A stretch of DNA of 64,000 nucleotides from Kordiimonas sp. Lineage in GTDB: Bacteria > Pseudomonadota > Alphaproteobacteria > Sphingomonadales > Emcibacteraceae. The DNA is taken from positions 62,001-126,000 of the forward strand of contig PADB01000012.1 in the NCBI GenBank assembly GCA_002700365.1, written 5' to 3'. The notes under the pieces are model-generated. The model did no database searches, had not been told where the DNA came from, and was given only the letters and a program-made list of their open reading frames with translations. A program made the position numbers and the translations under genes. Shown here in pieces: positions 6,210 through 46,327 of the stretch; position 1 is the stretch's first letter, and every line of letters starts with the position of its first letter.

Positions 6210-7268
6210 TTAAGAGGCCGTGGTTTGTCGCTGCCGTCGTTTTAGCATTTTGGCGGAAAGAGGCCCTGCAACGCCGGGCATGCTCCATGGGCATGAGGTC
6301 AGACAGAGGGCGCATCCCTGTTTTTCGCTCATGAATGGGGCGCATTTGTCAAAGTCCACATACCATTTTTCCACACCACGGACCAATTGCTTGCTGTCGC
6401 TGATGGCACCGGGTGGGCAGTGATTGGTGCAGGCCTGACAGCTGAGGCAGAAATCATCAGCACCATTGTCATAGGGGGCGTCCGGGATCAGTGGTATGTC
6501 GGTGACGATATCAGCAAGACGAAAGGCACTGCCGAGTTTGTCACTTAACATCGAACCGTTCTTCCCAAGTTGGCCTAGCCCTGCATCTATAGCTGCAGGA
6601 ATACCCATCAAAATATTCCCCGGTGCCGCGTCAAATCCACCATGGCCGTCGGCGGCGTAGCCCTGCGCACGTATCCAGTTAGCGATCTGAACGGCGGCCT
6701 TTTTTGATTTTTCATAACCCCCGAACACCTGTGCGACCGTAGAGGTGAAATCACCATCCAAATTCTTTTTGGCCTGCTCATAATCCATGGCGCGGCCAAT
6801 CATCACGACCCACTTAAATTTTTTGAAGGGGGCTGTGCTATCTTCCTGATAGATATATTCCTCTTTCATATTGGTAATGCCAATGATATCCACATCGGGA
6901 AGGGAGAGGGCGTATTCTTTCAGGCGACGTGTGAAGTTTTCCGGGCTGTCATGAATTTTGCGCGGGTTGATTCTTCTGGGACGTATATGTGTATGCACAA
7001 GATCTAAGATCATATGAAATCCCGTGCGCCATGTAGACGTAAACAGGCGGAATGCCCAGAGCAAGAGCCATTTGTTCAGCGGGTGGGATTTGTCACCGGG
7101 GGCAGGGAACATACGGCTGGGCCGTCTGACCTTTGCTTCGCCCAAGCCGTTCAGGCGATTGCCAACGGTCTTATCGGGGAGGGCCCTGTCTGTCAGGGTG
7201 GACGGGATATAATGACCATGTTCAGCCAGATGTCCGTTATAATATCCCATGGTGACCGCCTTTGTCAT
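6210..7268 (-). CDS. Short cytoplasmic reductive-dehalogenase-like / QueG-like Fe-S protein
   Basis: A 352-residue protein with the C-terminal architecture shared by reductive dehalogenases and epoxyqueuosine reductase: a cobalamin-domain-like segment (DAGLGQLGKNGSMLS ... VTDIPLIPDAP) followed by two 4Fe-4S motifs, CLSCQACTNHCP and CALCLTSCPW. The TDIPL and FCLSC-x2-C-x3-CP spacing and the CPW ending resemble RdhA more than QueG. There is no twin-arginine signal, so it should be cytoplasmic. It lies 124 bases downstream of nasA on the same strand and may ride on the nitrate operon. ATG 7268 or ATG 7250 (AAGGCGG upstream) could be the start. Corrinoid binding and substrate are unproven. Confidence 0.7.
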   Translation of the reverse strand: MTKAVTMGYYNGHLAEHGHYIPSTLTDRALPDKTVGNRLNGLGEAKVRRPSRMFPAPGDKSHPLNKWLLLWAFRLFTSTWRTGFHMILDLVHTHIRPRRINPRKIHDSPENFTRRLKEYALSLPDVDIIGITNMKEEYIYQEDSTAPFKKFKWVVMIGRAMDYEQAKKNLDGDFTSTVAQVFGGYEKSKKAAVQIANWIRAQGYAADGHGGFDAAPGNILMGIPAAIDAGLGQLGKNGSMLSDKLGSAFRLADIVTDIPLIPDAPYDNGADDFCLSCQACTNHCPPGAISDSKQLVRGVEKWYVDFDKCAPFMSEKQGCALCLTSCPWSMPGVAGPLSAKMLKRRQRQTTAS

Positions 7269-31739: not shown

Positions 31740-32648
31740 CTAAAGGGACTGTTCGCAGGTGGAAAAGGCCTGCACGTGGCGGTTAATCAAGTGGGTATAA
31801 TAGTTTCCATCAAGGGGGAGTTGGCGTCCCAAAGGGTCCACAGAAATTAATTTCAGATTATATCGTGCAGCAAGAGCCTGACTGGTGCGGGACGGGCGAG
31901 ACTTATCATAAATCAAGCAGTTTACCGGGGTCTGCCGTAGCATGTTTTGTAAGTCTTTTATGTGTTTGGCAGAGGGGGGAATGTCTTCTGTGGGTTTTAC
32001 ATGCCCGATATGGTGCAGATCAAACTGTTCTTCAAAATAGCCATAGGCAGGGTGTTCGACAACAAAAGCGACTTTTTTCATATTATCAAGTATATCTGCG
32101 GCGTTTTGTTCAATCTTTGTGATCTGTTGTATCAGAGATTGGCTATTCTGACGGTATAGTGCGGCATGCGCGGGATCTTTTTCCATTAAGATACGGCTGA
32201 TTTCTTGCGCCATAATTTTCATATTATAAGGGGCTAACCAAATATGCGGGTCCGCTGCCTTCACGCCGCTATGTGGGTGATGATTAAGAGATTTGTGCCC
32301 CAGAGAAGTCGGCAGCGAGCGAAGTATTAGCCCCCTTGTATGGATTAATGCGATGTACTTTTCATCATCATGACCCGCCGGCAAGAAGCTTTCCAGTGAT
32401 GGGCTGACATAAAGGACAAGATCAGCTTTGGCAATGGCATGGCGTTGTGATGGTTTGAGCTGGAAATGATGCGGTGAATGATAGCCCGTGATGATCTGCG
32501 TAGGTTCTGCCACGCCTTTCATGACCTGTTGCGCGATAAACTGAAGAGGGGCAATTGTCGTCACGACACCATATGCCCAGAGAGGCCGGGAGAGGAGTAT
32601 ATTTACAGCCAATACAACTGTAAAAAATGCAATGAAATGGGCGCGCAA
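31740..32648 (-). CDS. znuA: Zinc ABC transporter substrate-binding protein ZnuA
   Basis: A 302-residue cluster-A-I metal-binding protein (TroA/ZnuA fold) with a signal peptide ending near RPLWA. Metal ligands are expected at His in GYHSPHHFQLKPS, His in DPHIWLAP, His in VEHPAYGYF and Asp in ISVDPLGRQ. The His-rich loop between the first two (GHKSLNHHPHSG) is typical of zinc-specific members. No znuB or znuC gene is next to it, so the rest of the transporter must lie elsewhere. A Zur-like operator lies 34 bases upstream. Confidence 0.93.
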   Translation of the reverse strand: MRAHFIAFFTVVLAVNILLSRPLWAYGVVTTIAPLQFIAQQVMKGVAEPTQIITGYHSPHHFQLKPSQRHAIAKADLVLYVSPSLESFLPAGHDDEKYIALIHTRGLILRSLPTSLGHKSLNHHPHSGVKAADPHIWLAPYNMKIMAQEISRILMEKDPAHAALYRQNSQSLIQQITKIEQNAADILDNMKKVAFVVEHPAYGYFEEQFDLHHIGHVKPTEDIPPSAKHIKDLQNMLRQTPVNCLIYDKSRPSRTSQALAARYNLKLISVDPLGRQLPLDGNYYTHLINRHVQAFSTCEQSL

Positions 32649-32961: not shown

Positions 32962-33534
32962 ATGATTAATCCGACACAGAATGCACGCGAATTTGGCCAG
33001 GATGAAATTATCGTCAGCAAGACAGATCTCACAGGCCGAATTACATATGTAAACGATACTTTCCAGAGAGTTAGCCTCTTTTCCGAAAGTGAACTTTTGG
33101 GGCAACCCCATAACCTTATTCGTCATCCCGATATGCCGCGATGTGTCTTCAAATTATTATGGGAGACGATTGCGCAGGGCAGGGAGCTGTTCGCATACGT
33201 GAAGAATATCGCTGCGAATGGCGACTATTATTGGGTTTTCGCTCATGTAACGCCATCCTTTGATGAGGCAGGAAATATAGTCGGTTATCATTCGAACCGC
33301 CGTTATCCCGATCCGTCAACGGTCGAAATTATTGCTGCCCTGTATCGTCATCTTCTGGAAGAAGAAAACCGTCATGCTAATGCCAAAGACGGGGTGAACG
33401 CCGGGTATGAGATGCTGTTAAAACTGATGGAGGCGCAGGGTGTTTCCTATGATGAATTTATTTTCACTTTGGGGAACATCCAGAATACGGAAGATTTAGA
33501 TCAGGCTTTGTTCTCTTTTAGGAAAGCGAGTTAG
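32962..33534 (+). CDS. Aer-type PAS sensor protein, copy 1 (split aerotaxis receptor)
   Basis: A 190-residue soluble protein. Residues about 15-115 form a PAS domain closely like that of the aerotaxis receptor Aer: [33 protein letters not shown] and [18 protein letters not shown]. The RHPDMP stretch and following Trp correspond to FAD-contacting positions in Aer. The remainder is helical, with no membrane segment, HAMP or signalling domain. The chemoreceptor gene starts 5 bases after its stop, so the two probably work as one split receptor sensing redox state or oxygen. A second, similar pair follows at 35001. Confidence 0.88.
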
Positions 33535-33538
33535 GGCG

Positions 33539-34792
33539 ATGAGCATGTTAAATGGATTATTAAAAAAAACGCAGCCCGTAGACAACATAGGCCATACAGA
33601 AACAGCGGTTAACGATGACCATGATACGGCTGCGGAACTGGCTTTATATAAAGAGGCCTTTGAAAAAATAAAGAATGTTTGCCAGGCTGCGGAGCAAGGC
33701 GACCTGGAAAGCCGGATTACCCATAATGAAGGCTTTGGTGATTTGGTCAGCGGATTTAATGCGATCAATAATCTGCTGGATTTGGTTGATGCCTTTGTCC
33801 GGGAAAGTGGTGCGTCTTTGGAGCATGCCTGCGAACATAAATATTACCGCAGTTTTATGGAGCGCGGTAAGAAAGGGAGTTTCCGCCGGGGTGCTAAAGT
33901 TATTAATCAGGCACGCCTCCAGATGGAGGCCGGTGAGAAACGCGTAGCAGATGAACGCCGTGTGTTGGCGGATCAATTCGAAGAAAAAATTTCCGGCGTG
34001 GTGAATGCATTTTCCGCCTCTGTTGGTGAGTTGGAAACAACCGCAGAGCATATGAAGAACACGGCCCGTCAAACCCATGATGAAAGTGTGGCGGTGTCGA
34101 CATCCGCTAATGAAGCCACTTCAAACGTGAATGCCGTCGCCGCGGCAACAGAGGAATTGTCGACATCTGTCGGGGCTATTTTGGAGCAGGTCAATTCATC
34201 AGCAGAAACGACAAAATCTGCGGTGGCTGAGGTGGAAAATGCCTCTGCTGCGGTGCAGGGGTTGGCCACATCTGCGAATGAAATTGATAAAGTGGTTGAG
34301 TTAATTCGCGGCATTGCAGGCCAGACAAACCTGTTGGCGTTAAATGCGACTATCGAAGCGGCCCGGGCAGGGGAAGCCGGTAAGGGCTTTGCTGTGGTGG
34401 CTTCAGAAGTAAAAAATCTGGCCAATGAAACGGCGAATGCCACCGATGACATTGTTTTACAGGTGGACCAAATTCAGCAGGCAATAAACAATACGGTGAC
34501 CACGATTGAAAATATCAGCACCCGTATTTCAGAGGTTAGCGATTTTTCAGCAGCGATTGAAGCTACGGTCGATGAACAGAACGAAGCGACAATTGAAATT
34601 TCCCGTAGTGTCCAGGACGCAGCAACAGGAACAGAACATGCGGCGCAAAGTGTTGACAGTATTGCCGCAGCCTCACGTGAGACCGAGGAAGTCGCACAGC
34701 AAGTACGTGAGGAGACGGGCTCCCTGTCACAGCAGACAGAAGTGCTGATGTCTGAAGTCAGTAATTTTCTGAATTCAATCCGCAGTCAGTAA
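33539..34792 (+). CDS. Cytoplasmic methyl-accepting chemotaxis protein, copy 1
   Basis: A 417-residue chemoreceptor without membrane segments. The N-terminal part (residues about 35-140, [20 protein letters not shown] ... [12 protein letters not shown]) looks like tandem HAMP-type coiled coil. The signalling domain contains the invariant hairpin tip [20 protein letters not shown] followed by [19 protein letters not shown]. No CheR-tethering pentapeptide is present at the C-terminus. It presumably receives its signal from the preceding PAS protein and acts on CheA/CheW, which are not in this window. Confidence 0.93.
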
Positions 34793-34819
34793 TACGCGGG
34801 AAAAATGCTTTGATTTTGT

Positions 34820-34850
34820 AAGGCGGCTGACTTCCAGCCGCCTTAAATAT
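34820..34850 (+). terminator. Hairpin after chemoreceptor copy 1
   Basis: Perfect 10-bp stem AAGGCGGCTG / CAGCCGCCTT with loop ACTTC, followed by AAATATTTG, a poor T tail. Probably a terminator separating the two receptor pairs. A second hairpin (CGGTTGTAT / ATATAACCG) lies near 34880-34912. Confidence 0.6.
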
Positions 34851-35000
34851 TTGTTAGCGAATAAGACCTATAAATAAGATTGCGGTTGTATAAAAACAAA
34901 CAATATAACCGGGGCTAATGAAGAATAATTAAGTTACATATTAGTCATAAATACAGGGTGAAAGAGGCATTGGATTAATTGTTGAGAGGCGCGCAGTCTT

Positions 35001-35576
35001 ATGGTCAAAATACAGGTCACCCCGACCCAAAATGAGATAACATTTGGCGATGGTGAATTAATCGTCAGTAAAACAGACCTTAAAGGCCATATCACTTATG
35101 CCAATGATGTCTTTATGCGTGTGAGCCAGTTTGATGAACACGAACTGATCGGCCAACCTCATAGCGTAATTCGCCACCCTGATATGCCGCGATGTGTTTT
35201 CAAATTATTATGGGACACTATTTCGCAAGGGGGTGAAGTCTTTGCTTATGTGAAGAATATTGCCCGAAACGGAGATTACTACTGGGTCTTTGCGCATGTT
35301 ACGCCGACTTTTGATGAAGGTGGCAATATCATTGGTTATCATTCAAATCGCCGCAGCCCTGATCGTCATGCCGTAGAGGTCATGTCTGTACTATATGCGC
35401 ACCTTCTGAAAGAAGAACGTCGCCATTCCAATGCCAAAGACGGGCTTAACGCAGGTTTTCAGATGTTGAGCAATATTCTGGAAACACAGGGCATCCCTTA
35501 TGATGAATTCATTTTTACCATGGGTAATATTGAATCTTCTGATGGTCTGGCCAAGGCCTTATCAGGCTATAATTAA
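35001..35576 (+). CDS. Aer-type PAS sensor protein, copy 2 (split aerotaxis receptor)
   Basis: A 191-residue homologue of the protein at 32962, alignable from end to end: [57 protein letters not shown] and GYHSNRRSPD. The putative FAD-contact residues are kept. Differences are spread throughout, so the duplication is not recent. The C-terminal helical tail (YDEFIFTMGNI) is also conserved between the copies and may be the contact to the chemoreceptor. The start ATG has GAGAGG upstream. Confidence 0.88.
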   Translation: MVKIQVTPTQNEITFGDGELIVSKTDLKGHITYANDVFMRVSQFDEHELIGQPHSVIRHPDMPRCVFKLLWDTISQGGEVFAYVKNIARNGDYYWVFAHVTPTFDEGGNIIGYHSNRRSPDRHAVEVMSVLYAHLLKEERRHSNAKDGLNAGFQMLSNILETQGIPYDEFIFTMGNIESSDGLAKALSGYN

Positions 35577-35590
35577 GCAGAGTGGTAACG

Positions 35591-36871
35591 ATGATGAATA
35601 TCTTTAAAATGTCTTCTAATAGCAGCCAGCTAAAGGGGCGTATTGATAAAGGAAATGCGGTTAACATGGCTGCGGAAAATGCGCCTGATTTAGCATCTGA
35701 TGATGCTGCGCAATTGGCAAACTATCGTTTGGCGCATAAAAAAATCGAAGACGTTTGTAAGGCCGCGGCAGAGGGTGATTTAGAGCGGCGTGTCATCAGT
35801 GAAGCTGATGGGCGCGATGAAGAATTCAGATCTATTTATAATGCGGTGAATAGTGTTTTGGACCGTATGGATGCCTTTATTCGCGAAAGTGGCGCGTCTT
35901 TGGAATATGCCTGTGAAAAAAAATATTATCGCCGTTTTGTTGAACGGGGTATGCATGGCAGTTTCCGTCGTGGGGCAGAGGTGATTAATGAGGCGAGGGC
36001 ACAAATGGAGTCCGTTGAAGCCAAAGTATCACGGGAACGTCAGGCATTGTCGGATGAATTCGAAGAGAAAATATCCAGTGTGGTCAGTGCGTTCTCCGCA
36101 TCAGTTGAAGAATTGGATAAGACCGCTATCCAGATGAAAGAAACCGCACGTCAAACCCATGATGAAAGCATGGCAGTATCATCGTCGGCCAATGAGGCTA
36201 CAGCAAATGTTAATGCGGTTGCGGCCGCGACAGAGGAACTGGCCACATCAGTGAACGCGATTTTAGGGCAGGTGAATTCATCGTCAGAGACAACCCGTAC
36301 AGCGGTGAGTGATGTGGAAAGTGCTTCGCAGGCTGTTCAGGGGCTGGCGGAGTCTGCGCATGAAATTGATAAGGTGGTGGAGTTAATCAGGGGGATCGCA
36401 GGACAGACGAACTTATTAGCTTTGAACGCCACCATTGAGGCGGCACGGGCGGGGGAGGCCGGTAAAGGTTTTGCCGTCGTGGCGTCTGAGGTGAAAAATC
36501 TGGCTAATGAGACGGCGAATGCCACTGATGATATTGTTTTGCAGGTTGAAGAAATACAACATGCGATTGAAAACACTGTTTCCACAATTCGTAATATCAG
36601 TGATCGCATTAATCAGGTGAATGAATTTTCTTCTGCCATTGAAGATACAGTGGGGGAACAGAATATGGCGACTATAGAAATTTCCCGCAGTGTTCAGGAC
36701 GCGGCCACTGGTACGCAACATGCGGCGGACAGGGTTGATAGTATTGCAGCAGCATCGCGTGAAACAGAGGCTATTGCTGGTGAAGTTGGGCGGGCGACAC
36801 ATGATCTGACAAAACAGACAGACTTTTTGAGAAATGAAGTCAATGCCTTCTTACAATCAATCCGCGGTTAA
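35591..36871 (+). CDS. Cytoplasmic methyl-accepting chemotaxis protein, copy 2
   Basis: A 426-residue homologue of the receptor at 33539. The HAMP-like N-terminal half (YRLAHKKIEDVCKAAAEGDL ... RRGAEVINEARA) is more divergent, while over 60 residues around the signalling tip ([20 protein letters not shown] onward) are identical to copy 1. It also lacks a membrane segment and a C-terminal pentapeptide. I start at ATG 35591; a GTG at 35582 is possible. It forms a two-gene unit with the PAS protein 14 bases upstream. Confidence 0.93.
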   Translation: MMNIFKMSSNSSQLKGRIDKGNAVNMAAENAPDLASDDAAQLANYRLAHKKIEDVCKAAAEGDLERRVISEADGRDEEFRSIYNAVNSVLDRMDAFIRESGASLEYACEKKYYRRFVERGMHGSFRRGAEVINEARAQMESVEAKVSRERQALSDEFEEKISSVVSAFSASVEELDKTAIQMKETARQTHDESMAVSSSANEATANVNAVAAATEELATSVNAILGQVNSSSETTRTAVSDVESASQAVQGLAESAHEIDKVVELIRGIAGQTNLLALNATIEAARAGEAGKGFAVVASEVKNLANETANATDDIVLQVEEIQHAIENTVSTIRNISDRINQVNEFSSAIEDTVGEQNMATIEISRSVQDAATGTQHAADRVDSIAAASRETEAIAGEVGRATHDLTKQTDFLRNEVNAFLQSIRG

Positions 36872-36946: not shown

Positions 36947-37792
36947 CTAGGATTTAGCACCGACATTTTCCGGCAGGGAAATAACATGAAGGTCCTGCTG
37001 CGGATAGGGAATAGAAACACCGACATCGTCCAATTTGAGTTTAATGTTTTTAACCAGATCAAAACGGACAGGCCAGTAGTTACCGTTTGCACACCATGCC
37101 CGTACGATCAGGTTGACAGAGCTATCGGCCAGTTCACTGACGACAATTTGATGGGCCGGGTCTTTTAGAATACGGTTGTCCTGACCGATGACATCGGCGA
37201 TGGCCTGTGTTGCGGTGTCAATGTTATCGCCATAACCAATACCAATAACCAGATCAACACGGCGGTTGTCGTGATGGCTGTAATTTTTCACAGCGGCACC
37301 CCAAACCTGACCATTGGGAATGACAATCTGAACGTTGTCGCCAGTGCTCATTTCCGTAGTGAAAAGGCTTAGATTCCTGATGACGCCAGCATGACCAGCG
37401 ACTTCAACAAAATCGCCGATTTTAAAGGGCCGGAAGATTAAAAGCATAACCCCTGCGGCAACGTTGCTGAGTGTTCCTTGCAGGGCCAGACCAATGGCAA
37501 GACCCGCCGCACCGAAGACAGCCAAGAGGCTGGCTGTTTGCACGCCAAATTGATCAAGTACGGCCAACAGCGTGAAAATGAGAATAATGTATTTAACGAT
37601 GCTGGCGAAAAAACCGGCTAACATAGCATCAAATTTAGGACTTTTGAGTAAGGCGCGACGTGTGGCCCCAGAGGCCCAGCCAGCAACAATCCAGCCAAGG
37701 ATAAGAATAATAAGCGCGCCGAGAACGCTAAATCCATAGGTCGTGGACATCTCAATCACAATGTCCGTTATTTCCTGCATTTGGTCTTCCAT
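36947..37792 (-). CDS. mscS: Small-conductance mechanosensitive channel
   Basis: A 281-residue MscS-family channel, close to the E. coli MscS length (286). Three N-terminal helices are followed by the pore helix TM3 with its Gly/Ala pattern (FGAAGLAIGLALQGTLSNVAAGVMLL) shown in part here as GLAIGLALQGTLSNVAAG, then the beta domain (RPFKIGDFVEVAGHAGVI; VIPNGQVWGAAVKNYS) and the cytoplasmic vestibule. It opens under membrane tension to release solutes during osmotic downshock. Transcribed alone, convergent with the chemoreceptor. Confidence 0.94.
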   Translation of the reverse strand: MEDQMQEITDIVIEMSTTYGFSVLGALIILILGWIVAGWASGATRRALLKSPKFDAMLAGFFASIVKYIILIFTLLAVLDQFGVQTASLLAVFGAAGLAIGLALQGTLSNVAAGVMLLIFRPFKIGDFVEVAGHAGVIRNLSLFTTEMSTGDNVQIVIPNGQVWGAAVKNYSHHDNRRVDLVIGIGYGDNIDTATQAIADVIGQDNRILKDPAHQIVVSELADSSVNLIVRAWCANGNYWPVRFDLVKNIKLKLDDVGVSIPYPQQDLHVISLPENVGAKS

Positions 37793-37939: not shown

Positions 37940-37970
37940 CACGGGTTCACGAAATTTGTGATGAACCGTG
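37940..37970. other. Hairpin upstream of the bufferin operon
   Basis: CACGGGTTCA faces TGAACCGTG with one bulged G and a 12-base loop, followed by ATTTTCATTT. Possible terminator or regulatory stem. Together with the next palindrome it is the only structure I see in the 301 bases between mscS and bufA. Confidence 0.35.
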
Positions 37971-38093: not shown

Positions 38094-38357
38094 ATGAGTA
38101 CTTCAACAGCAAAAAATAGCGCGTTAGTTGCCTCAGCCATGGCGGTCGCATTGAGCATGGCATCAACCACACCGGCTACGGCTGGTGCTAAGAATATGGA
38201 AAAATGCTACGGCGTGGTGAAAGCCGGGAAAAATGATTGTCAGACCGCGACTTCTTCATGCGCGGGAACGTCCAAAATAGATGGCCAGAAAGATGCCTGG
38301 ATTTATGTACCTAAGGGGACATGCGCGAAAATCGTGGGTGGTTCTACACAGTCATAA
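38094..38357 (+). CDS. bufA: Bufferin precursor BufA (DUF2282 RiPP precursor)
   Basis: An 87-residue exported RiPP precursor. ATG 38094 has GGAAG upstream and gives a Sec signal peptide (hydrophobic stretch at about 9-23, Ala-x-Ala region near TPATAGA). The mature region has the four conserved cysteines of bufferin 1 at residues 38 (EKCYGV), 49 (NDC), 56 (SSCAGTS) and 77 (PKGTCAKIVGG). In characterised bufferins some cysteines become 5-thiooxazoles that bind copper, helping cells cope with excess metal. The partner enzymes are encoded directly downstream. A longer reading from ATG 38064 would add ten charged residues before the signal peptide. Confidence 0.92.
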   Translation: MSTSTAKNSALVASAMAVALSMASTTPATAGAKNMEKCYGVVKAGKNDCQTATSSCAGTSKIDGQKDAWIYVPKGTCAKIVGGSTQS

Positions 38358-38435
38358 GCAGGCCTGATGCTGCCAGATAAGGACCAGAACAGACACAAGT
38401 TGACGTAAAAAGACGACCTGAGACAGGAGTATCCT

Positions 38436-39356
38436 ATGTTTGCATCTTCCCACGCTAAACAGTCCTTCCCACGGGATTTCCTGTCTCAACCGTCCTTTGA
38501 AAAGATGGTCGGTGAAAATATGGTCGGCGTGAGCCTAAAGGCACAGCATTATCAAACCATATTGGAGCAACTGCCGCCATTGGGCTGGTTCGAAGTGCAT
38601 TGTGAAAATTATATGGGGGCAGGGGGGGCGCCACATTATTATCTAGGTCGAATTGCGGAAAATTACCCGATCTCTTTTCATGGTGTGGGAATGTCACTGG
38701 GGAGTTGTCAGCGTCTTGATAAAGATCATCTTTTCAAATTAAGGGAACTGGTTGATCGTTATTGCCCGTTTCTGGTGTCAGAACATCTCGCGTGGTGCGG
38801 GACTGAACAGCGGTATTTAAATGATCTTCTGCCGATGCCGTATACCGCAGAAAGTCTTGACGTCTTGGTGCGCCATGTTGATGAAATGCAAACGACGTTA
38901 AGGCGACAGATATTAATCGAAAACCCGTCCAGCTATCTGGAATACAGAGGGCAGGATTATGATGAAGCGGCGTTTCTCGTAGAACTTGCGCGGCGGAGCG
39001 GCTGTAAAATTCTGCTCGATATCAATAATATCTACGTTTCCAGCTGCAATCATGGCTGGGACGCATTGGCCTATCTGCGGTCAATACCGGCTGATATTGT
39101 CGGGGAAATACACTTGGCTGGTCATCATGTGCGCCAGTGGCGCGGTCAGGAAATTCGCATTGATGATCATGGTAGTAATGTCTGCGAGGCGGTGTGGGCA
39201 CTCTTTGAGAACGCTGTCGGTATGGTGGGGATAAAGCCCACCTTGGTTGAATGGGACAGCAATGTACCTTCTTTGTTAACCCTGCTGCAGGAGGCAGGGC
39301 GTGCGTCATTAATTATGGACAAAATATCCGACAGGGTGGGTTGCCATGGCGGATAA
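38436..39356 (+). CDS. bufB: BufB, DUF692 multinuclear iron-dependent oxidase (MNIO)
   Basis: A 306-residue DUF692/MNIO enzyme with a TIM-barrel fold that modifies precursor cysteines using iron and oxygen. Conserved blocks with expected metal ligands: GWFEVHCENYMG, ISFHGVGMSLG, FLVSEHLAW, ILIENPSSYLEY, KILLDINNIYVS, GEIHLAGHH and IDDHGSNV. CAGGAG precedes the ATG by 8 bases. It follows bufA by 78 bases and overlaps bufC by 11 bases. By family knowledge it converts BufA cysteines to thiooxazoles together with the DUF2063 partner. Confidence 0.95.
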   Translation: MFASSHAKQSFPRDFLSQPSFEKMVGENMVGVSLKAQHYQTILEQLPPLGWFEVHCENYMGAGGAPHYYLGRIAENYPISFHGVGMSLGSCQRLDKDHLFKLRELVDRYCPFLVSEHLAWCGTEQRYLNDLLPMPYTAESLDVLVRHVDEMQTTLRRQILIENPSSYLEYRGQDYDEAAFLVELARRSGCKILLDINNIYVSSCNHGWDALAYLRSIPADIVGEIHLAGHHVRQWRGQEIRIDDHGSNVCEAVWALFENAVGMVGIKPTLVEWDSNVPSLLTLLQEAGRASLIMDKISDRVGCHGG

Positions 39357-40191
39357 ATGTTCTCTTTCAGAAGCCCCATTGCGCCTTCCTTCATTAGGAC
39401 GATTGCAGTCGTCCTTTCAAAGAAACATCATTGGTCATAGCCATATGGATGTGGACGATAAAGAGCTACTCCCCTTTATTATCGAAAACGGCATTCCAGC
39501 TGGAGAACGGTTGGATATATATCGCAATAATAGCTTTATTACCCTGCGGGAGGCTTTAAAGGCCACATTTCCTGTCGTGTGCCAATTGGGGGGAGAGGAC
39601 TTCTTTAATATGTTGGCCGCGGCGTATATTCGGCAATGCCCCCCCGCAAAGGCATCATTGATATTTTATGGTGACCGGTTTGCTGCATTGATTGATGAAG
39701 ATAAAAGGACGGCGTCCATTCCCTATCTGGGAGATGTGGCCCGGCTGGAATGGGCCTGGCATTGTTGTTATCACGGGCAGGATGACACGCCGCTTGTGGC
39801 GCAAGATATGCAAACGCTGGATGATACTGATTTCCCGGAAATACATTTTAAACTTTTGGCGAATAGGCAATGGGTAAAGTCCAATTACCCTGTCCTGCAT
39901 ATCTGGCAAATACATCAGGAACCTGATGAGGGCATGGAGATGGTGTCTTTGGAAGAGGGCGGATGTGATCTGCTGGTTATGCGTCATGAGCTTGATATAC
40001 AGATCGTCAACTTTGCACCAGATGCAGCACTGTTTTTACGATATTTAGATCATGAAAAAAGTCTGGCAGACGCCACACAACTGACCCAGGACGCTTATGC
40101 CGGGTTTGATCTGCAAAGCTGCCTGCAGGAAATGTTGACGTTAGGGGTCTTTAGCCAATTTTACTTCAAAGATAGAAGGAGCCAGTCATGA
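39346..40191 (+). CDS. bufC: BufC, DUF2063 partner protein of the MNIO enzyme
   Basis: A 281-residue protein with the DUF2063 putative DNA-binding-like N-terminal helical domain (LDIYRNNSFITLREALKATFPVV; LAAAYIRQCPPAKASL; IPYLGDVARLEWAW) and a C-terminal RRE-like region. In MNIO systems this partner binds the precursor and presents it to the enzyme. Its start overlaps the bufB end, and its end overlaps the DoxX gene by 4 bases (ATGA), so the three are translationally coupled. No membrane segment is seen. Confidence 0.92.
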   Translation: MADKCSLSEAPLRLPSLGRLQSSFQRNIIGHSHMDVDDKELLPFIIENGIPAGERLDIYRNNSFITLREALKATFPVVCQLGGEDFFNMLAAAYIRQCPPAKASLIFYGDRFAALIDEDKRTASIPYLGDVARLEWAWHCCYHGQDDTPLVAQDMQTLDDTDFPEIHFKLLANRQWVKSNYPVLHIWQIHQEPDEGMEMVSLEEGGCDLLVMRHELDIQIVNFAPDAALFLRYLDHEKSLADATQLTQDAYAGFDLQSCLQEMLTLGVFSQFYFKDRRSQS

Positions 40192-40712
40192 CACATTCAA
40201 ATCTTGCCTTTGGGGACTTAATGTCACGATTGGCGGTATGGCCAATGACATTAGGGACGATGATTCCTATGGGCGCCATTGGTTTATTGGCGCGCCTTGG
40301 TATTGCGGGCATATTTTGGCGATCGGCAATGACAAAAATCACGTTGTTTGTAGATGTCGGCAACTTTTCTTTCGCGCAGTTTTGGGCTGTGCTGACGTTG
40401 AATTGGGAGGTTAGCCCCGTCACATATACTCTTTTTGAATATGAATATGCGCTGCCCGTAATCCCCCCCGCGTGGGCCGCACATCTGGCGTTGATGGCGG
40501 AAATAATACTGCCGTTGTTATTATTGTTGGGGCTTGCAACACGGCTCTCCGCCATGGCTGTTTTTGTCATGACATTGGTAATCCAGTTATTTGTTTACCC
40601 TAATCTTTGGCCGGATCATGCGTTGTGGTCTGCTGCCGCGTTATACTTAATGGCAAAAGGGGCGGGGGTGATGTCTCTGGATTATCTCATTACACGCAGA
40701 TTTTTACCCTAG
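40188..40712 (+). CDS. DoxX family membrane protein of the bufferin operon
   Basis: A 174-residue DoxX-type protein with about four helices (IGLLARLGIAGIFWRSAMTK; AAHLALMAEIILPLLLLLGL; AMAVFVMTLVIQLFVYP; AALYLMAKGAG). DoxX proteins regularly close bufferin operons (GigD in Caulobacter); their role there is not settled, with quinone-linked redox or membrane partnering proposed. The ATG overlaps the bufC stop. Confidence 0.9.
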   Translation: MTHSNLAFGDLMSRLAVWPMTLGTMIPMGAIGLLARLGIAGIFWRSAMTKITLFVDVGNFSFAQFWAVLTLNWEVSPVTYTLFEYEYALPVIPPAWAAHLALMAEIILPLLLLLGLATRLSAMAVFVMTLVIQLFVYPNLWPDHALWSAAALYLMAKGAGVMSLDYLITRRFLP

Positions 40713-40803
40713 TCGTAAAAATTATTTTTTGTCGCAGGTTTTCTGCGGGGATAGCGTATTATAGTTATGATGTTGGGAGGGGCCTCATTTTCAGGAGAGA
40801 GGT

Positions 40804-41280
40804 ATGACAAAGAAGATTATCATTACAGCCATTTCTATGGTGGCATTGGGAACAACCGTTGCTATTGCCGATGGTCATATGAAAAAGAAAGAGGCCATGC
40901 GGGATATGATGTCAGGTCATGGTGGCAAAGCACATCATGGTGCTGTGATGCTGCATATGTATGACCGTAACGAAGATGGTGTTGTTTCTGCAGACGAATT
41001 TAAGCAACAACATAAAAAAACATTTGTCGCTGCCGATGATGACGGCAATGCGGCATTGGACTTTGAAGAATTCGAAAGCTTTGCCGAAATGCAGAAGGCT
41101 GCCCATCAACGTGCCATGCGCCAACATAAATTTAAAATGATGGACAGCAATGGTGATGGTAAAGTGAGTGCGGATGAATTTAGTGCCAAGATGGACAAAC
41201 GTTTTGCCCGCATGGATCGCAATGATGATGGGACATTGGATAAAAAAGACCGAAAATCACTGCATAAGCCAAAGAATTAA
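40804..41280 (+). CDS. Periplasmic EF-hand protein
   Basis: A 158-residue secreted protein with a signal peptide (MTKKIIITAISMVALGTTVAIA) and four EF-hand-like loops: DRNEDGVVSADEF, DDDGNAALDFEEF, DSNGDGKVSADEF and DRNDDGTLDKKD. Loops 1 and 3 are canonical; loop 2 is one residue irregular and loop 4 ends in Asp. A Met/His-rich segment after the signal (HMKKKEAMRDMMSGHGGKAHHG) could bind copper or another metal, in keeping with the bufferin operon 91 bases upstream, though it has its own AGGAG and probable promoter. Calcium binding is inferred. Confidence 0.88.
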   Translation: MTKKIIITAISMVALGTTVAIADGHMKKKEAMRDMMSGHGGKAHHGAVMLHMYDRNEDGVVSADEFKQQHKKTFVAADDDGNAALDFEEFESFAEMQKAAHQRAMRQHKFKMMDSNGDGKVSADEFSAKMDKRFARMDRNDDGTLDKKDRKSLHKPKN

Positions 41281-41380: not shown

Positions 41381-41552
41381 CAATTGTTAAAATATCAGTG
41401 TGGTGATATGAACTGGCTGTTGCAGTAATGACAAAGCCGCAGTATTTTCGCGCAGATATTAAGTGACATTGCATAAGTCATCCGGCCAATGGTGAGGGCC
41501 ATGGCAGATAACGAGCATGCAAACGAATATGCATAAGAACAGGAGCACACAG

Positions 41553-42431
41553 ATGTTCAAAGGCTCTATACCCGCTCTGATTACCCCGTTTGCGAACGGC
41601 CGTGTTGATTATGATGGGTTTCAGAAGTTGGTGAACTGGCAAATTGAAGAAGGATCACACGGTTTAGTGCCTTGTGGGACAACAGGTGAGTCGCCAACAT
41701 TGGACCATGATGAACATCGTAAAGTGACGGAAATAGCGATTGACGTTTCTGCAGGGCGGGTGCCGGTTATTGCGGGATGCGGTTCTAATTCCACCCGTGA
41801 GGCTGTAGGCCTGATGGAACATGCTGCCAAGGCGGGTGCGGATGCGGCGCTGGTCGTTGTGCCTTATTACAATAAGCCGACGCAAGAGGGAATGTTTCAG
41901 CATTTCAAGGCCTTAAATGATGCGGCTGATTTGCCGATCATTATATACAATATTCCCGGGCGCAGCATTGTCGATATGAGCGTAGAGACAATGGCGCGTT
42001 GCTATGGGGAATTGAAAAATGTTATTGGCGTTAAGGATGCTACGGGCGATGTTGCCCGTGTGGCGTTGCAGCGCGTTGCCTGTGGGCCAGACTTTTTGCA
42101 ATTGTCCGGGGAAGATCAAACAGCCCTGGCTTTGATGGCGCATGGGGGGCATGGGTGCATTTCAGTGACCGCAAATATTGCGCCGTCTCTTTGTGCCGCT
42201 TTTCAGAATGCCTGCATGGAAGGTGATTATCAAACCGCACTGACATATCAGGACCGATTAACACGGCTACATGACGCGATGTTTGTAGAGGCAAGCCCGG
42301 GACCTGTTAAATATGCAGCATCATTATTGGGGCTATGCAGTGATGAAATGCGTTTACCTATGGTGCCTGTCAGTACGCAGACGCAGAAAACGGTACGCTC
42401 TGCCCTGGAAGATGCGGGCTTATTAGGATAA
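41553..42431 (+). CDS. dapA: 4-hydroxy-tetrahydrodipicolinate synthase
   Basis: A 292-residue TIM-barrel aldolase that condenses pyruvate with aspartate semialdehyde in lysine and diaminopimelate synthesis. The Schiff-base lysine is in IGVKDATGD, the catalytic Tyr in IIYNIPGRS, and the substrate loop is [12 protein letters not shown] use ATG 41553 ([13 protein letters not shown]), which has AGGAG 8 bases upstream and matches the family N-terminus; an upstream in-frame ATG at 41517 has no ribosome site. smpB follows after 4 bases. Confidence 0.97.
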
Positions 42432-42435
42432 AGAC

Positions 42436-42906
42436 GTGACAAAGAATCAGGGGGCGCGCCGGATCGTAGCGGATAACCGTAAGGCGCGTCACAATTATTT
42501 TGTAGAAGAAGAACTGGAAACCGGCATTGTATTGCAGGGGACTGAGGTTAAGGCCTTAAGGGCAGGGGCAACCAATGTGACTGATGCCTATGCCGAGGTG
42601 CGTGGGAACGAAGTATATCTGCTGAATATGCATATCCCTGTGTATGAGCAGGGCAATCGTTTTAACCACGATCCATTGCGGCCCCGAAAATTATTACTGC
42701 ATCGTCGTGAAATCAGTCGTTTGCTGGGGGCAACCCAGCGTAAAGGGCTGACCCTAATTCCTCTGTCCTTGTATTTTAACGACAAAGGGCGGGCAAAAGT
42801 TAAATTAGGACTGTGCAAAGGTAAAAAGCTGCATGACAAGCGCGCGACTGAGAAAGACCGCGACTGGGCACGAGAAAAAAGCCGTCTGATGAAAGAAAAC
42901 GGCTGA
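42436..42906 (+). CDS. smpB: SsrA-binding protein
   Basis: A 156-residue SmpB, which binds tmRNA and delivers it to stalled ribosomes. Family blocks are clear: [25 protein letters not shown], given here as [17 protein letters not shown], plus [17 protein letters not shown] and the C-terminal helix [17 protein letters not shown]. The start is GTG 42436. Pairing dapA-smpB is common in alphaproteobacteria. The tmRNA gene is not in the window. Confidence 0.96.
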
Positions 42907-45687: not shown

Positions 45688-46251
45688 TTAGCGAACTGGT
45701 TGAGGCGGACCCATTTTCCAACTGCCGTCCGGCTGGAGACACGCCGTACCATATGCCGGGACCGTTTCATTGCCAACGGTAATGGTTGTTGTGTATTCAC
45801 GTTCCTGTAGACAGTTGCGGGTTGTATTTTGTTTGTATTGTGGTGTGTGACTTACCCATTTGTTTGTTGTGGATACACTGGCACTGTTGTGCGAATGGGT
45901 GTGGTCGTGACGGCTGTTATGCTGACGTGAGAGGTTGTAGGCTGCAGTTGCCGTAACGGCCCCCAGAACAAAACCGGTAAAGAGACGACTATGTCCGTGA
46001 TGACGATGGCGCGGATAACTGTGATAATAGACATGGTGGTGCCGATTGACATTATAATGCTTTTTATAGTGTTTTTTATGGTGCTTCTTATAATGTCGAT
46101 AGTGTTTCCCGTGATAGTGAACACTGTGGCGGTCGTGATAGCTTTTTCCACCGCCAGCCGCTGCGGGGGCGGTGCCATAAGTGAGGGTGAGCGCACAGGT
46201 TAGCCCCAGAACAAGGGTGTGGCGCAGAATGTTTTGCTTCAACAGTTTCAT
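45688..46251 (-). CDS. His/Tyr/Lys-rich exported protein, unknown function
   Basis: A 187-residue protein with a signal peptide (LVLGLTCALTLTYGTAPAAA). The mature N-terminal half (about residues 36-90) is extremely rich in His, Tyr, Lys and Arg (motifs such as HYRHYKKHHKKHYKKHY and HHHVYYHSYPRHRHHGH), suggesting metal, haem or polyanion binding. A hydrophobic segment (FTGFVLGAVTATAAYNL) follows, then a second His stretch. The end resembles the RT0821/Lpp0805 surface-antigen tail with two cysteines (NCLQEREYTTTITVGN; AYGTACLQPDGSW). I start at ATG 46251, where GGAGACGAT precedes. Confidence 0.78.
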   Translation of the reverse strand: MKLLKQNILRHTLVLGLTCALTLTYGTAPAAAGGGKSYHDRHSVHYHGKHYRHYKKHHKKHYKKHYNVNRHHHVYYHSYPRHRHHGHSRLFTGFVLGAVTATAAYNLSRQHNSRHDHTHSHNSASVSTTNKWVSHTPQYKQNTTRNCLQEREYTTTITVGNETVPAYGTACLQPDGSWKMGPPQPVR

Positions 46252-46327
46252 TATCGTCTCCACTTCTTTCTTACCCCTCAACCTTGATAAGGATAAGGAG
46301 GTAAGGCTGAATGGAGGATGAATGCCC

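Follow-up and report, generated by a model that had tools for sequence, protein, structure and literature searches.

The window analyzed here, a stretch of 64,000 nucleotides from a Kordiimonas sp. contig (PADB01000012.1), carries a bufABC-doxX operon that is followed directly by a gene for an exported EF-hand protein. It is highly probable that the operon is an ordinary Buf1 bufferin operon and that the EF-hand gene lies outside this system and is linked to dapA and smpB; the adjacency of the two is most likely an old junction.

An ordinary Buf1-type operon

The bufferin operon consists of the following genes.

38094-38357, + strand, bufA: Buf1/DUF2282 precursor (PF10048, E = 9.8e-26, above the cut-off)
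38436-39356, + strand, bufB: MNIO-family maturase (PF05114, MbnB_TglH_ChrH, 3e-101, above the cut-off)
39346-40191, + strand, bufC: DUF2063 partner protein of the PME type (PF09836, 1.3e-20, above the cut-off)
40188-40712, + strand, doxX: bufD-like membrane protein (PF07681, 3.6e-13, above the cut-off)

These genes span 38094-40712 in the canonical order, and the DUF2282 precursor, MNIO enzyme, DUF2063 partner, and DoxX protein named in a preliminary description of the sequence were all found in the order and orientation given there. The overlapping starts that it reported hold for two gene pairs, with an overlap of 11 bp between bufB and bufC and of 4 bp between bufC and doxX, but not for bufA and bufB, which are separated by a 78-bp gap, or for doxX and the EF-hand gene, which lie 91 bp apart on the same strand. 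Against the NCBIfam model MNIO_BufB, bufB scored 375 bits (cut-off, 310); the NCBIfam matches of bufC to the HvfC family and of doxX to HvfX fell below their cut-offs. The genome has one MNIO gene and one DUF2282 gene.

The earlier identification of a bufferin operon is borne out by the published Buf1 core of DUF2282, MNIO, DUF2063, and DoxX proteins (PMC12452194). Judged from its sequence, the operon is another member of this known cluster type, with the same four-Cys precursor and the same MNIO, DUF2063, and DoxX order as clusters such as that of Caulobacter vibrioides bufferin 1 (Antoine et al. 2025, PMC12452194), and we found no feature of it beyond the known Buf1 range. The sigma factor/NrsF control of some Buf1 clusters (PMC12452194) is absent or different here, the window's genome having no NrsF gene.

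The four cysteines of BufA that had been described as conserved (C38, C49, C56, and C77) were indeed invariant in an alignment of eight precursors, one of which was of a divergent second-copy type. By eye, the BufA N terminus resembles a signal peptide, with a charged start, an A/M-rich stretch, and an ATAGA-like cleavage site; it did not reach the hydropathy cut-off. Across 50 homologues, each putative metal ligand of BufB (H82, H117, E162, D195, N197/N198, H226, D243, and H245) was at least 97% conserved. In an alignment to 3bww, N197/N198, D243, and H245 were the counterparts of HvfB N175, D242, and H244, which are essential residues whose replacement abolishes activity (PMC13419390).

In published Buf1 bufferins, the modification falls on the two central cysteines, and a disulfide links the outer pair (PMC12452194). 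By analogy with these relatives, BufA would be exported by Sec, after BufB together with BufC had probably converted its two central cysteines into 5-thiooxazoles, and the outer pair would form a disulfide. The mature peptide would then bind excess periplasmic copper, with an accessory role likely for DoxX. Captophorins, which are peptidic 5-thiooxazole metallophores (PMC13097082), share the gene makeup of this operon, in which an MNIO enzyme with a partner of the DUF2063 type would modify a DUF2282 precursor.

No motif shared among relatives was found upstream of bufA by eye or by regular expression, and a scan for sigma-70-type promoters gave no more matches than did shuffled sequences. An imperfect inverted repeat, GGTTCA-N12-TGAACC, lies about 150 bp upstream of bufA (37945-37968, a position estimated from its offset) and was absent from the relatives examined.

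The EF-hand gene lies in a dapA-smpB block

Downstream of doxX, the strand continues with three further genes.

40804-41280, + strand, EF-hand gene: exported protein (EF-hand_5, 2.7e-16, above the cut-off)
41550-42431, + strand, dapA: downstream neighbor of the EF-hand gene (TIGR00674, 2.9e-98, above the cut-off; Pfam DHDPS, above the cut-off)
42436-42906, + strand, smpB: in the same block as dapA (named from sequence similarity and context)

We compared this region with that of relatives, which were genomes of one order, several of them incomplete. Homologues of the EF-hand gene lay directly upstream of dapA in 11 of them, all from the window's family (G024, G002, G008, G010, G007, G005, G022, G003, G001, G031, and G015), and smpB homologues came after dapA at the same site. 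In G013 and G017, which belong to this family too, the EF-hand homologues adjoined smpB. None of the 11 homologues preceding dapA adjoined a bufferin operon; in G003, G001, and G002 the operon was about 22, 52, and 98 kb away, respectively. Upstream of the EF-hand gene, most of these relatives had an MFS gene, complete or partial in the fetched stretch, and it is this position that the bufferin operon happens to fill in the window.

The same block was found in a second family (f4), in which the EF-hand gene was upstream of dapA-smpB in G040, G046, and G051. In G046 and G051, a bufferin operon lay directly upstream of the EF-hand gene. G046 and G040 share 94 to 95% identity across 6.3 kb on the upstream side and across 2.0 kb plus 3.3 kb on the downstream side, with the alignment breaking at 6256/8964 in L051 versus 8063/7973 in L128. 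The difference is a 2.7-kb bufferin operon that is present in G046 and missing from G040, while the EF-hand-dapA-smpB block is present in both. As the operon occupies this site in G051, another f4 genome, as well, loss from G040 is the simpler reading. Whether the operon was gained or lost, the EF-hand gene was kept with or without it and is thus independent of it. On these sequence comparisons, the EF-hand gene belongs with dapA and smpB, a block of housekeeping genes, and lies outside the bufferin operon. Two blocks thus meet in the window, mscS/bufABC-doxX on one side and EF-hand-dapA-smpB on the other.

Farther downstream, at 45691-46281 on the - strand, the window encodes an exported protein that is strongly enriched in His and matches no Pfam family. 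Homologues of this protein were also found downstream of smpB in G001, G002, and G003.

A probably old junction

The doxX-EF-hand-dapA-smpB adjacency is not unique to the window's genome, as it recurs in family f4 (G046 and G051). In a tree of concatenated BufB, BufC, and DoxX sequences, the window fell among its family's doxX-containing operons (100/98), and a separate clade (97/96) united the two f4 operons at this site (G046 and G051). This tree is consistent with vertical inheritance of the operon. In the EF-hand tree, the window grouped with its own family without strong support, and in the dapA tree it fell in a weakly supported group that mixed its family with f4.

One ancestral bufferin-EF-hand-dapA-smpB junction that the window's genus and f4 retained, and that was broken in other lineages, fits, and the adjacency is probably an old junction from an ancestor shared with f4. 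The operon and the block might also have been joined independently in the two families, possibly under selection for proximity. The operons found 22 to 98 kb away in G001, G002, and G003, which are of the same family as the window but outside its genus, show that not every member of the family has the junction and speak for such independent joining. However, the operon groups of the window's family and of f4 each follow their own family and join each other, if weakly (87/49), which also suits one ancestral junction that was later lost or rearranged, and we consider two separate joinings unlikely.

Is the EF-hand protein a bufferin associate?

The preliminary description had suggested that the EF-hand protein could work together with the bufferin system. 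As a periplasmic metal-binding protein cotranscribed with doxX, it might store or hand over copper or sense Ca2+. The layout lends itself to this idea, since no terminator-like site was found in the 91-bp gap between doxX and the EF-hand gene on the same strand, so that read-through from the bufferin promoter is possible. The doxX-EF-hand adjacency in G046 and G051, the Met/His-rich leader of the protein, and the published fusions of Buf_EGKC to EF-hand_5 domains, which place some EF-hand proteins in MNIO systems (PMC12452194), point the same way.

The neighborhoods of bufferin genes, however, argue against it. We scanned 40 neighborhoods from the order and five others with models seeded from the window's genes, recognizing EF-hand open reading frames by their loop pattern. 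Of the 44 MNIO genes flanked by 2.8 kb or more of downstream and 1.5 kb or more of upstream sequence, only two, those of the window and G046, had an EF-hand open reading frame within 4 kb. A third neighboring pair occurs in G051, where the MNIO gene is at a contig edge. G046 and G051, like the window, have the pair at the dapA-smpB site. The adjacency is rare, it occurs at that site only, and the EF-hand gene remains where the operon is missing from it. The EF-hand gene is thus not conserved beside bufferin operons, a result that the preliminary description had itself named as counting against its proposal.

Nor is the presence of the two genes correlated across genomes. Among 31 relatives of the family, 9 had both MNIO and EF-hand genes, 5 had MNIO only, 12 had the EF-hand gene only, and 5 had neither (Fisher P = 1). 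Among the 21 that were at least 90% complete, the corresponding numbers were 9, 4, 8, and 0 (P = 0.13, leaning toward a negative association). These counts are approximate, since MNIO genes were detected by Pfam family and EF-hand genes by alignment A1 at 1e-10, with unequal sensitivities.

The EF-hand protein contains four EF loops, whose first residues are 54, 78, 114, and 138, and its gene has no second homologue in the window's genome. The Met/His-rich segment reported earlier is present, as a leader with a Met-plus-His content of 0.35, and it may bind metal. Unlinked homologues have comparable leaders (0.48 in G010, 0.38 in G022, and 0.42 in G030; leader boundaries are crude throughout). 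These three genomes have no MNIO match, and Met/His leaders were seen in the homologues of five MNIO-less genomes, G007, G008, G010, G022, and G024. Being common to unlinked homologues, the segment is not evidence for a bufferin role, and the leader was discarded as a sign of a role in copper handling. The protein also lacks the cysteines and EGKC motif of a fusion-type precursor. Taken together, the synteny with dapA-smpB, the two loci out of 44, the persistence of the gene without the operon, and the lack of co-occurrence make a functional association very unlikely. That the protein was recruited to copper handling specifically in the window's genus and in f4, through cotranscription from the bufferin promoter, has likewise only a slender chance of being true.

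Proline in EF loops is a feature of lanmodulin, and the EF-hand protein has none at position 2 of its loops. It is small and exported, as lanmodulin is, and matches the lanmodulin profile NF053806 weakly (45 bits; cut-off, 135). With a score below the cut-off and no proline at loop position 2, a lanmodulin-like protein was ruled out.

That the EF-hand protein is itself an MNIO substrate can be dismissed with near certainty: EF-hand_5 precursors are known from MNIO clusters, including published chimeras in which Buf_EGKC precursors are fused to EF-hand_5 domains (PMC12452194), and share with our protein an EF-hand_5 domain in an MNIO gene context, but the protein here is separate and syntenic with dapA-smpB, has no EGKC motif or Cys-containing N-terminal domain, and, like most of its homologues, contains no cysteine at all, leaving nothing for an MNIO enzyme to convert to a thiooxazole.

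Other neighbors of the operon

On its other side, the bufferin operon is flanked by a divergent channel gene, with further genes beyond it.

36947-37792, - strand, mscS: mechanosensitive channel, divergent from bufA (Pfam MS_channel_2nd, 4e-20)
32962-34792 and 35001-36871, + strand: two tandem gene pairs, each encoding a PAS-domain protein and then a methyl-accepting-chemotaxis-like protein
31743-32648, - strand: ZnuA-type zinc-binding protein (PF01297, 1e-54)

A divergent mscS gene flanked 10 of the 15 bufferin loci of family relatives, two bufferin subtypes included, as well as that of the window. It is better conserved beside bufferin operons than is the EF-hand gene, which possibly reflects only vertical inheritance; as a bufferin neighbor, mscS is not mentioned in PMC12452194. 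Three of the relatives (G003, G001, and G002; loci L039, L046, and L047) had bufferin operons of two subtypes in tandem, of which the first lacked doxX. The tandem PAS/chemotaxis-like pairs (32962-36871) apparently arose by local duplication. No transporter partner for the ZnuA-type protein was found among the open reading frames on either side of it.

Implications for the bufferin gene set

For the bufferin family, the window adds one Buf1 operon to the thousands already catalogued. The value of the result is mainly negative, in that synteny and a pair of occupied and empty sites assign the EF-hand gene to the dapA-smpB block. The tempting fifth gene belongs to that block and should stay out of the bufferin gene set.
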